Source of the DNA: Acidimicrobiales bacterium
Lineage (GTDB): Bacteria; Actinomycetota; Acidimicrobiia; Acidimicrobiales; MedAcidi-G1
Reading direction: 5' to 3'
Assembly (NCBI GenBank): GCA_016845305.1
Contig: JAERSW010000039.1
Coordinates: forward strand, 1-64,000
DNA length: 64,000 bases
The notes beneath the pieces were generated by a model. It saw only the letters and a list, made by a program, of their open reading frames with translations. It made no database searches and was not told where the DNA came from. Both the position numbers and the translations under genes were made by a program. How positions within the stretch are numbered: position 1 is the first letter of the stretch; every line of letters begins with the position of its first letter. Of the stretch, positions 5 through 20,829 are shown piece by piece.

Positions 5-40
5 AAAAAAGGGCTCGGCGCCCCGAAGGGCGCCGAGCGG
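5..40 (-). terminator. Rho-independent terminator, leftward
   Basis: A perfect 10-bp inverted repeat (13-22 with 29-38) encloses a 6-base CTTCGG-type loop. Read on the minus strand it is followed, after CC, by six T. This is a textbook intrinsic terminator for leftward transcription. On the plus strand no T-run follows the stem. It lies about 190 bases past the nth stop and could end nth transcripts or the putative short transcript described next. Confidence 0.85.
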
Positions 41-227: not shown

Positions 228-869
228 TCAGACCTCGCTGGCCGGGCAGAAGTCCTGGAGCACGCACTCGCCGCACCGGGGCTTCCGGCTCGGACAGACC
301 CGCCGTCCGTGGAGGATGAGCCGCAGGCTGAACGTCCCACGCTCGTCCGCCGGCACCATCGGGTTCAGCTCGAACTCGACCTTCACCGGGTCGGTCTCCG
401 TCGTCATGCCCAGGCGCCGCGACAACCGTCCCACGTGGGTGTCCACGGGCAGGCCGGGCAGGTCGAGGGCCACGCTGCGCACCACGTTGGCCGTCTTGCG
501 GCCCACCCCGGGCAGCGACGTGAGGTCCTCCATGCTCCCGGGCACCACGCCGTCGTAGACCTCGACCAGGCGCTGGGCCATCCCCAGCAGGTTCTTCGCC
601 TTGCTGGCGTAGAAGCCGGTGGACCGGACGATCTCCTCCAGCTCGTGGGGCACCGCCCCGGCCAGGGCCTCCGGCGTCGGATAGGCGGCGAACAGGTTCG
701 GCGTCACCATGTTCACCCGCTTGTCGGTGCACTGCGCCGAGAGGATGGTGGCCGCCAGCAGCTGGAACGGGTCCTCGTGGTCCAGCTCGCACACGGCGTC
801 CGGGTACTCGTCGGCCAGACGACGGTGCGTCTCGGCGGCTCGGCCCTTCGGCGACCTCGGTCGTCCCAC
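228..869 (-). CDS. nth: Endonuclease III (DNA glycosylase/AP lyase)
   Basis: 213 aa, the normal length for endonuclease III. It excises oxidised pyrimidines and nicks the resulting abasic site in base-excision repair. A helix-hairpin-helix LPGVGRKTAN carries the catalytic lysine, VDTHVGR carries the catalytic aspartate, and the C-terminus has the iron-sulfur ligands C192-X6-C199-X2-C202-X5-C208. The GTG at 869 is chosen because TACCGT (878-883, minus strand) lies 8 bases upstream and no Shine-Dalgarno sequence is seen, which suggests a leaderless mRNA. It is divergent from the mycothiol synthase gene with only 26 bp between the starts. Confidence 0.96.
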   Translation of the reverse strand: MGRPRSPKGRAAETHRRLADEYPDAVCELDHEDPFQLLAATILSAQCTDKRVNMVTPNLFAAYPTPEALAGAVPHELEEIVRSTGFYASKAKNLLGMAQRLVEVYDGVVPGSMEDLTSLPGVGRKTANVVRSVALDLPGLPVDTHVGRLSRRLGMTTETDPVKVEFELNPMVPADERGTFSLRLILHGRRVCPSRKPRCGECVLQDFCPASEV

Positions 870-877
870 GGGGGCCG

Positions 878-887
878 ACGGTAGCCT
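878..887. promoter_or_regulatory. Overlapping divergent -10 elements (nth / mshD)
   Basis: The 10-mer ACGGTAGCCT contains two -10-like hexamers that share two bases: TACCGT on the minus strand (878-883) and TAGCCT on the plus strand (882-887). Each ends 8 bases before its start codon (869 and 896). Polymerase could hardly occupy both at once. The hexamers are seen; promoter activity is inferred. Confidence 0.5.
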
Positions 888-895
888 CGCCGACC

Positions 896-1650
896 ATGGC
901 CGACCTGACCGTCTCCGACGGGACCGACGCCGTCACCCTCACCGGCGACGCCGAACGCTGGCTGGTCGAGCTGTCCCTCGGCGACCTCGGCCGACCCGGG
1001 GAGCCGACCGACGAGCTGGGCACGGCGGCCGAACGGGGCCGTCGCATGCTCGAGGCCGCCACCCACGCCGTCGTCCTGGAGGGCGGCGGCCGCCTCGAGT
1101 ACTGGGTCGAACGGGTCGACGACCAGAGCGACGACGTCCCCACCAAGGCCGGCTTCGTCCCGTGGCGCGACCTGCTGCGCCTCCGCCGGGAGCTCCCGGC
1201 GCTGCCCACCGACCTGGCCGTCCGGGCCTACGCCGAGGCCGATGCCGAGGCCTTCCTGGACGTCAACAACCGGGCCTTCGACTGGCACCCCGAGCAGGGC
1301 GGGATGACGCTCGAGGACCTCGCCGCCAAGCAGGCCGAGCCCTGGTACGACCCCGAGGGCTTCCTGGTGCTCGAAGAGGACGCCGCCATCACCGGCTTCT
1401 GCTGGACGAAGGTCCACGCCGACGAGTCGCCGGCCCTCGGCGAGATCTACGCCATCGCCGTCGACCCCGAGCACCACGGCCGGGGACTGGGGCGCGAGCT
1501 CACGCTGGCCGGCCTGGCCCACCTCTCGTCGAAGGGCCTGCGCCACGCCATCCTCTACGTGGAGTCCGACAACCGGCCGGCCCGCCGGATGTACCGCGAC
1601 CTCGGGTTCGAGGTGGAGTTCACCAACCGGGCGTACCAGCGCTTCGTCCG

Positions 1651-1654
<4 letters not shown>
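896..1654 (+). CDS. mshD: Mycothiol synthase-like GNAT acetyltransferase
   Basis: 252 aa. The C-terminal half (from about residue 110) is the MshD-type GNAT domain, with an HPEQGGMTLEDL segment, FCWTKVH, the acetyl-CoA loop motif DPEHHGRGLGREL and LYVESDN. MshD transfers acetyl from acetyl-CoA to Cys-GlcN-Ins, the last step of mycothiol synthesis. It is shorter than the roughly 300 aa of typical MshD, with a reduced N-terminal GNAT-like half. Its stop overlaps the rlmN start (ATGA). TAGCCT lies 8 bases before the ATG. A related GNAT of other specificity cannot be excluded. Confidence 0.85.
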
Positions 1655-2754
<1,100 letters not shown>

Positions 2755-19169: not shown

Positions 19170-20351
19170 TCAGGTGAGCGCGGCGAGGGCCGGGACGTCC
19201 AGCTCGGCGTCGGTCAGGCCCCCGTGGCGGCCGATCAGGTGGATCGAGGTGTGCTCGGCGGCGTCGACGAAGGCCACCGGCTCCCGGGCCACCAGCGCCA
19301 CGTCGCCGAGGCGGCGCCGGGCCGCGTCGGTCACCACCGGACCCAGCCAGCCGTCGGCCAGTACCCGGTCGACGCCGACCACCCAGGCCAGGTCGCCGAA
19401 GGCCTCCTCGCAGGCCACCCGGAGTTCGGTCGCCGAGCCGGGGCGGGCGTGCAGCCACCGGAACCGGGCCTCGCCGCTCTGCCCGTCGACCAGCGAGGTC
19501 ACCTCCGACGGGAGCTCGACGAGGCGGTCGTCGACGTGGACCTGGCCGTGGTCGGCGGTCACCACCAGGGCCGTGCCGGCCGGGAGCCGGTCCAACAGGT
19601 CGGCCACCATGGCGTCGCAGGCCGCCAGCTCGGCGTCGTAGCGGTCGCCCAGGCCGAACTCGTGGGCCGTGCGGTCCACGTCGTCCCAGTAGGCGTAGGT
19701 GAACGGCTCGCCGGACCCCACGCACGCCAGCACCGCGTCGACCAGGCCACTGCGGTCCCGGTAGCCGACGAGGCGGGCGTCGGACAGGTGGGCGGCGGTG
19801 AAGCCCGAGCCGAGGAAGGCCTCGCGGGTCACCACGGGCGGCCACTGGTCCTCGAAGAGCGGGCACGGCTGGAAGGCCCTCGGATCGTGCCGGTGTCGGG
19901 CATCGCCGCCTCCGGTGCTCCACCGCAGGGCGTTCAGGACCTCGTCGTGGGGTGCCGCTCCCCCACCCACGGCGATCCGGTAGCCGACCACCCCGTGCTC
20001 GCCCGGCGGCACCCCCGTGGAGATGGAGGTGAGGGCGGCGGCCGTGGTGGTGGGCGCCACGGTGGTGATCGGACCACCGGCCATACCGGCCAGCGTGGGG
20101 GCGACCGCACGCCGCGCCCGGAGCTGGTGCCATCCCAGGCCGTCGAGGACCAGCAGGACCGTCCGGGACGCTCCGGCCACCTCGGCGGGGAGCCACGACG
20201 GCCACCCCCCGGCGACCTCCGGCCCGTCGACCAGGGCGGGGACGAGGCGGGTCACGCAGGCATCGCCGTAGTCGGGCAGGCGGGGCCCGTCGGGCGCCGC
20301 CCCGTTCTCGGGCGTCCGGCCCGCGGGGCCCGTCGACACATCCGGCTCCAT
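19170..20351 (-). CDS. Type I phosphodiesterase/nucleotide pyrophosphatase-like hydrolase
   Basis: 393 aa alkaline-phosphatase-superfamily protein. VLLVLDGLGWHQL supplies the first metal Asp, TTVAPTTTAAALTSISTG the nucleophile Thr region, YWDDVDRTAHEFG and VVTADHGQVHVDD the remaining Asp/His ligands. No signal peptide is visible. It probably hydrolyses a phosphodiester or pyrophosphate; the substrate is unknown. It is divergent from the Rrf2 gene over 37 bp, with TACCTT 9 bases before its own ATG. Confidence 0.88.
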   Translation of the reverse strand: MEPDVSTGPAGRTPENGAAPDGPRLPDYGDACVTRLVPALVDGPEVAGGWPSWLPAEVAGASRTVLLVLDGLGWHQLRARRAVAPTLAGMAGGPITTVAPTTTAAALTSISTGVPPGEHGVVGYRIAVGGGAAPHDEVLNALRWSTGGGDARHRHDPRAFQPCPLFEDQWPPVVTREAFLGSGFTAAHLSDARLVGYRDRSGLVDAVLACVGSGEPFTYAYWDDVDRTAHEFGLGDRYDAELAACDAMVADLLDRLPAGTALVVTADHGQVHVDDRLVELPSEVTSLVDGQSGEARFRWLHARPGSATELRVACEEAFGDLAWVVGVDRVLADGWLGPVVTDAARRRLGDVALVAREPVAFVDAAEHTSIHLIGRHGGLTDAELDVPALAALT

Positions 20352-20360
20352 GCGCCTGCG

Positions 20361-20380
20361 AAGGTAGCGGCGCCTAGGAT
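20361..20380. promoter_or_regulatory. Divergent -10-like elements (phosphodiesterase / Rrf2)
   Basis: Minus-strand TACCTT (20361-20366) is 9 bases before the ATG at 20351, and plus-strand TAGGAT (20375-20380) is 8 bases before the GTG at 20389. An Rrf2 protein bound here could control both directions; no clear operator palindrome was found. Confidence 0.4.
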
Positions 20381-20388
20381 CGACCGCC

Positions 20389-20829
20389 GTGAAGGTCTCG
20401 ACGCGGGGCGACTACGCCAGCCGCGCCCTCCTGTCGCTCGCCCTCCACGGCGACGACCAGACGCCCCGCTCGGTCCGCGACGTGGCCGATCGGACCGGCC
20501 TCCCCCAGCCCTACCTTGAGCAGATCCTGCTCGCCCTGAAGGGCGCCGGCCTGGTGCGGTCCAAGCGGGGGGTGGGCGGCGGGTACGTCCTCGCCCGGGA
20601 ACCGTCGACCATCCTGCTGTCGCAGATCGTCGCCGCCGTGGACGGCCCCATCGTGGCCGGCGACTTCGGCGACCCGCACACCGGTGGCGCCTGCGACCAC
20701 GAGGGCCAGTGCGTGCTGCTGTCCATCTGGGCCGGGGTCGGCGACCACATGCAGGCCTACCTCGACTCGTTCACGCTGGCCGACATCGCCGAGATGGCCC
20801 GCGGCGAGGCCGCCTGGCCCGGCGCCTGA
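20389..20829 (+). CDS. Rrf2-family transcriptional regulator
   Basis: 146 aa. The N-terminal winged helix has KVSTRGDYASRALLSLA, LPQPYLEQILLALKGAGLV and KRGVGGGYVLAR, typical of Rrf2/IscR. The usual cluster-binding segment has three cysteines; here C102 and C108 remain (ACDHEGQC) but the third is absent. It could bind an iron-sulfur cluster with another ligand, or act as a thiol switch. GTG start, leaderless pattern. Confidence 0.92.
   Translation: MKVSTRGDYASRALLSLALHGDDQTPRSVRDVADRTGLPQPYLEQILLALKGAGLVRSKRGVGGGYVLAREPSTILLSQIVAAVDGPIVAGDFGDPHTGGACDHEGQCVLLSIWAGVGDHMQAYLDSFTLADIAEMARGEAAWPGA

Follow-up and report, generated by a model that had tools for sequence, protein, structure and literature searches.

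The 26-bp gap between the divergent genes nth and mshD appears to constitute one symmetric bidirectional housekeeping promoter from which both genes would be transcribed as leaderless mRNAs, rather than a switch between them, a reading to which we assign a probability of roughly 0.8. It draws on the geometry of the junction, its conservation, the leaderless signal across the genome and the recurrence of the arrangement, all of which were observed directly. An earlier note on this DNA had claimed that two overlapping leaderless promoters share -10 bases here, and conservation together with the genome-wide leaderless signal now supports that claim well. The relevant features of the window, by which we mean the whole stretch of 64,000 nucleotides analyzed, are given below.

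870-895, no strand: intergenic gap between the nth and mshD start codons (sequence; junctions of relatives)
882-887, plus strand: -10-like hexamer TAGCCT of mshD, with 888-895 as the 8 nt to the ATG (sequence)
883-878, minus strand: -10-like hexamer TACCGT of nth, with 877-870 as the 8 nt to the GTG (sequence)
882-883, no strand: TA dyad common to both hexamers (sequence)
877-888, no strand: invariant 12-mer GACGGTAGCCTC (13 of 13 same-genus junctions)
228-869, minus strand: nth, endonuclease III, 213 aa, GTG start (TIGR01083, 239.4 bits; cut-off 211.7)
896-1654, plus strand: mshD, mycothiol synthase-type GNAT acetyltransferase, 252 aa (TIGR03448, 199.4 bits; cut-off 163.1)
1651-2754, plus strand: rlmN, in ATGA overlap with the mshD stop (TIGR00048, 338 bits; cut-off 290)
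13-38, minus strand: terminator-like hairpin with a T-run, downstream of nth (consensus scan only)

The GTG of nth occupies 869-867 on the minus strand and the ATG of mshD 896-898 on the plus strand. Between them, the -10-like elements of the two strands overlap in a symmetric core, the 10-mer ACGGTAGCCT at 878-887, and T882-A883 are the bases that both hexamers share. The length of the gap, the 10-mer and the 8 bases to each start had been given in the earlier note and agree exactly with the sequence. The CGG that precedes TAGCCT agrees with the SRN/CGN context described in M. tuberculosis, GGC precedes TACCGT on its own strand, and a C directly follows each hexamer, again read on its own strand. 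Both hexamers match TATAAT at 3 of 6 positions (T, A and T only) and are thus weak. Inspection by eye of both upstream stretches revealed no GGAGG-like Shine-Dalgarno run before either start, and a consensus scan of the junction found no consensus -35 element. From the hexamers and start codons, the two transcription starts are predicted to lie 23-27 bp apart; if both fell exactly on the start codons, the distance would be 27 bp, whereas 23 bp would need 2-nt leaders.

The names nth and mshD proposed earlier hold, with both proteins scoring above the curated TIGR cut-offs. The nth start is backed by a conserved N-terminus in an alignment of 10 proteins, and GTG and ATG replace each other between species at this same position, as expected for true starts. 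Given the ATGA overlap of mshD with rlmN, these two genes are probably co-transcribed and the rightward transcript is probably polycistronic. Matches in the same genome to the model of MshC, another mycothiol-pathway protein, fell below the cut-off (447 bits vs 485). They involve two adjoining genes at G000:C32:17490-19944, which score 447 and 312 bits and which we take to be, probably, an mshC-like and a cysS-like gene.

We analyzed the spacing of -10-like elements at 338 genes in 374 kb of this genome (the window and 20 further stretches), with genes called by codon usage alone and no information on promoters or ribosome-binding sites. TANNNT stood 6, 7, 8 and 9 nt upstream of the start codon in 27, 13, 14 and 8 genes, respectively (62 of 338), and each of the remaining spacings between 0 and 49 nt was seen in only 0-2 genes. 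This peak, judged from start-codon positions, is the leaderless-promoter signature of the genome, and the 8-nt spacers on both sides of the nth/mshD junction lie inside it. In an alignment of the 62 TANNNT promoters no clear -35 signal was seen, S-R-N preceded the hexamer in 37, and a C directly followed it in 66%. Gaps of 22-28 bp were shared in 3 of 3 cases, and sharing was found in 5 of 6 cases in pattern-chosen stretches and in 1 of 2 in the rest, all of these figures being biased upward by the choice of stretches, 6 of the 20 having been picked because they held shared-TA pattern sites. A divergent pair at 20351-20389 of the window, whose genes lie 37 bp apart, each with a leaderless hexamer of its own (spacers 9 and 8), is the unshared counterpart of the nth/mshD arrangement.

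Within the genus, mshD is present in 14 of 17 genomes and the nth/mshD junction is intact in 13; the remaining locus, L022 (G009), stands outside the junction set, contig ends breaking it. In each of the 13 the TA is shared and the spacers measure 7 or 8, and all 13 are identical over positions 877-888, while 12 of the 14 other positions of the gap vary. In the same comparison, only 1 of 75 four-fold degenerate sites in nth was invariant. Conservation and the spacing statistics rule out chance hexamers; position and conservation, not the bare frequency of the pattern, exceed chance. In L011 (G011), ATGACC repeats at the mshD start produce three in-frame ATG codons, and the hexamer is spaced for the first of them. 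Three same-genus genomes (G001, G013 and G014, one of them 96% complete) are without nth, mshD and rlmN together; the entire region has been lost, or else these assemblies have a gap in common.

We propose that a single TA step would supply positions 1 and 2 of two -10 elements lying back to back (ANNNTANNNT), the rightward one driving mshD, probably with rlmN, and the leftward one nth. Each element is spaced for a transcription start at, or a couple of bases from, the start codon. Both mRNAs would be leaderless, and the gap would leave no room for anything else. In either direction, the holoenzyme would open the DNA at the shared TA and start transcription at about the start codon. The free bases of one TANNNT would form the -13 to -15 context of the other -10 element, a double use that may explain why the whole 12-mer is frozen; every base of 877-888 would then serve one direction or both. 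Given leaderless transcription both ways, the entire intergenic region, 870-895 in full, is probably a single putative core promoter, and given that the transcription start would be the start codon, promoter geometry would fix the length of the gap. The transcription starts, leaderless translation, promoter strength and absence of a regulator at nth/mshD are all predictions from the DNA, the likely outcome being that both genes are expressed constitutively at a low level and that polymerases in the two directions occasionally exclude each other.

We then compared this junction with those of an order-wide set (taken as Acidimicrobiales) of 123 junction loci, 93 of them with both starts assigned. 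Dropped were 19 loci without a start codon at aligned nth residue 1 and 13 without an mshD-like ORF within 160 bp, two sets that overlap. For additional coverage, 60 further nth loci were taken, about one per genus, and 8 of the 30 resulting loci were used, the unused ones being mostly duplicates of genomes already included, with some g41 relatives also left out; six named loci were added to the set, and L065-L138 were left out of the analysis. The nth hexamer was present in 80 of the 93 junctions, a count unconditioned by motif, nth starts having been set by protein alignment, and the mshD hexamer in 89 of 93, a count conditioned on a choice of start that favored the one having a hexamer. Both hexamers occurred in 76 junctions; the TA is shared in 19 of them and the hexamers are separate in the other 57. 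The 19 shared-TA junctions span 7 genera and 5 families, and their gaps are all 22-26 bp. Six of these loci lie outside the genus, in genera g18, g30, g115, g127, g196 and g202, namely L046 (G048, f13), L054 (G060, f25), L208 (G202, f27) and L179, L187 and L213 in three genera of f20; their gaps are 22-25 bp and other letters surround the TA.

This comparison also bears on whether only one promoter is real, most likely the CGGTAGCCTC of mshD, with A878 a coincidence and nth transcribed from elsewhere. The mshD hexamer and its GG/CGG context are near-constant in much of the family, including at junctions whose hexamers lie apart. Moreover, five junctions with short gaps of 19-23 bp (L043, L044, L048, L195 and L225) carry the mshD hexamer and no nth hexamer, which indicates that a short gap is not always a two-way promoter. 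However, G877 and A878 do not vary in any of the 13 same-genus junctions, and nth has its own TANNNT 6-9 nt before its start in 78 of the 93 order-wide junctions, separate cases included, as compared to a total of 6 at all other spacings from 0 to 33 nt. We thus consider it unlikely that transcription from the gap runs in one direction only.

Less likely still is a functional switch, in which occupancy in one direction would materially repress the other and couple DNA repair to mycothiol supply. The earlier note had proposed such an either/or link between DNA repair and mycothiol synthesis, reasoning that polymerase can engage only one direction at a time. That part of the proposal stands, since it follows from overlapping footprints and is stated for bidirectional promoters in the passages of PMC12825309 that we draw on; footprints that overlap rule out simultaneous binding of two polymerases, as would be true of any promoters this close. 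According to the same passages, strong activation in one direction can repress the other in E. coli, and competition appeared only under that condition. When one direction was weakened in the five bidirectional promoters of E. coli that were tested, the other was barely affected, an outcome explained by a basal occupancy too low for competition (PMC12825309). At the nth/mshD junction the hexamers are weak and the consensus scan found no -35. The sister genera g2, g3, g4 and g6, which belong to the same family, keep nth and mshD divergent at a distance of 46-92 bp, and there each gene has a hexamer of its own 6-8 nt from its start; the shared arrangement is absent from these genera, and the architecture recurs on unrelated gene pairs. 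The nth-mshD neighborhood is widely conserved and the shared promoter is not. The switch itself is therefore unsupported. Since both hexamers are weak and neither a -35 nor a regulator site is evident, nth and mshD would more likely be co-expressed at a low level. The arrangement is no proof that DNA repair and mycothiol synthesis are linked, and a functional pairing of the two genes would be hypothetical.

We next searched the 2.92-Mb genome for the pattern CAY-N6-9-ANNNTANNNT-N6-9-RTG and found it at 11 places. The bare pattern is not clearly enriched, a first-order Markov model giving a mean of 8.0 in 6 simulations, so enrichment was dropped as an argument and the case rests on position only. 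ORFs of at least 150 aa run both ways at 6 of the 11 places, as opposed to 0 of 2 for an AT-centered decoy. A reversed-pattern control, with 4 places in this genome, was set aside as support because it equals or exceeds the forward count in several same-genus genomes among the matches listed. The six two-way places comprise nth|mshD, RDD|PhyH, uracil-DNA glycosylase|histidine phosphatase, polyketide-cyclase-like|MFS, GpsA|CofC and DUF4395|pyridoxal-dependent decarboxylase. The genome thus has at least five further divergent pairs with a shared TA and a predicted double-leaderless geometry (loci L229, L231, L232, L234 and L236, around 1501-1531), and all ten products of these pairs match Pfam families. 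Among the matches listed, several of the pattern sites recur in other same-genus genomes. No functional link is evident between the pairs that the architecture joins in this genome. The CofC/GpsA core, ACCCTAGGGT, is a perfect palindrome. These sites also speak to the least probable alternative, that the invariant 12-mer is a regulator binding site with promoters elsewhere or overlapping it: although all 12 bases are frozen, beyond the demands of TANNNT alone, the 12-mer is far from a full palindrome, and the other sites in this genome and in other families keep only ANNNTANNNT while their letters differ, as would be expected of a core promoter rather than of a specific operator.

The symmetric promoter that we propose combines features of two known systems. 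Bidirectional promoters with a shared -10 element have been described in E. coli and other prokaryotes by Warman, Grainger, Wade and colleagues, with preferred start spacings of 10, 18 and 23 bp and small variation, about a quarter of them lying between divergent genes (Warman et al., 2026; PMC12825309, in part). As in those promoters, the nth/mshD junction has one pseudo-symmetric shared -10 and two divergent starts, here predicted, and from its geometry the back-to-back sharing of TA would match their 23-bp class. Unlike them, both nth and mshD mRNAs are predicted to be leaderless, the promoter would be the entire intergenic region, and its geometry would dictate the distance between the start codons. 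The five E. coli examples in those passages have -35 elements, and several have regulators. In M. tuberculosis, TANNNT occurs without a conserved -35, many mRNAs are leaderless, closely juxtaposed divergent promoters are common, and one divergent pair is leaderless both ways (PMC3898074, in part). The nth/mshD promoters resemble the leaderless promoters of that organism in TANNNT, the lack of a conserved -35, S-R-N or C-G-N before the hexamer and a predicted start at the start codon; the passages of PMC3898074 that we draw on describe no single -10 common to two leaderless genes and no conservation across families. Our literature search, which covered titles and the openings of abstracts, with subscription papers mostly outside it, found no shared -10 for two leaderless genes recurring at one pair in several families. 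As bidirectional and leaderless promoters are both known, we provisionally classify nth/mshD as a bidirectional promoter of a variant type.

More generally, we give even odds to the idea that in leaderless-rich actinobacteria, divergent pairs repeatedly collapse onto one symmetric -10, producing a quantized minimum gap in which a TA step sets the starts of both transcription and translation. If so, the gap would equal 10 bp plus two spacers of 6-9 nt, here 22-26 bp, and promoters of this kind would be minimal units for two genes, recurrent and possibly convergent, that lack both a regulator and an untranslated region. By joining symmetric bidirectional promoters with leaderless mRNAs, it may be the smallest arrangement that starts two genes, and the start codons of divergent genes in such genomes would be predictable from promoter geometry.

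A single gene pair supplies natural variants in which the promoter is shared, split or one-sided, making the costs and benefits of sharing a -10 testable. In the nth tree, G048, a shared-TA genome of another family, grouped with the family to which the window belongs (support 99/94). Three loci of g2 (L034, L035 and L036) carry ACAGTAGCCT, the ten-mer of G048, at the nth promoter and a second mshD hexamer further downstream; this ACAGTAGCCT is possibly the remnant of a former shared promoter. Taken together, the grouping of G048 and the ACAGTAGCCT of g2 make both fusion in the genus and splitting in its sister genera possible, and we give no number of origins. Locus L203 (G088) was considered as a shared case and left uncounted, its first ATG beginning only a short frame whose stop lies at the start of mshD. 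This frame, in the first 60 bp past the nth start, is about 11 codons long, ends in an ATGA overlapping the mshD start and may be a leaderless upstream ORF coupled to mshD.
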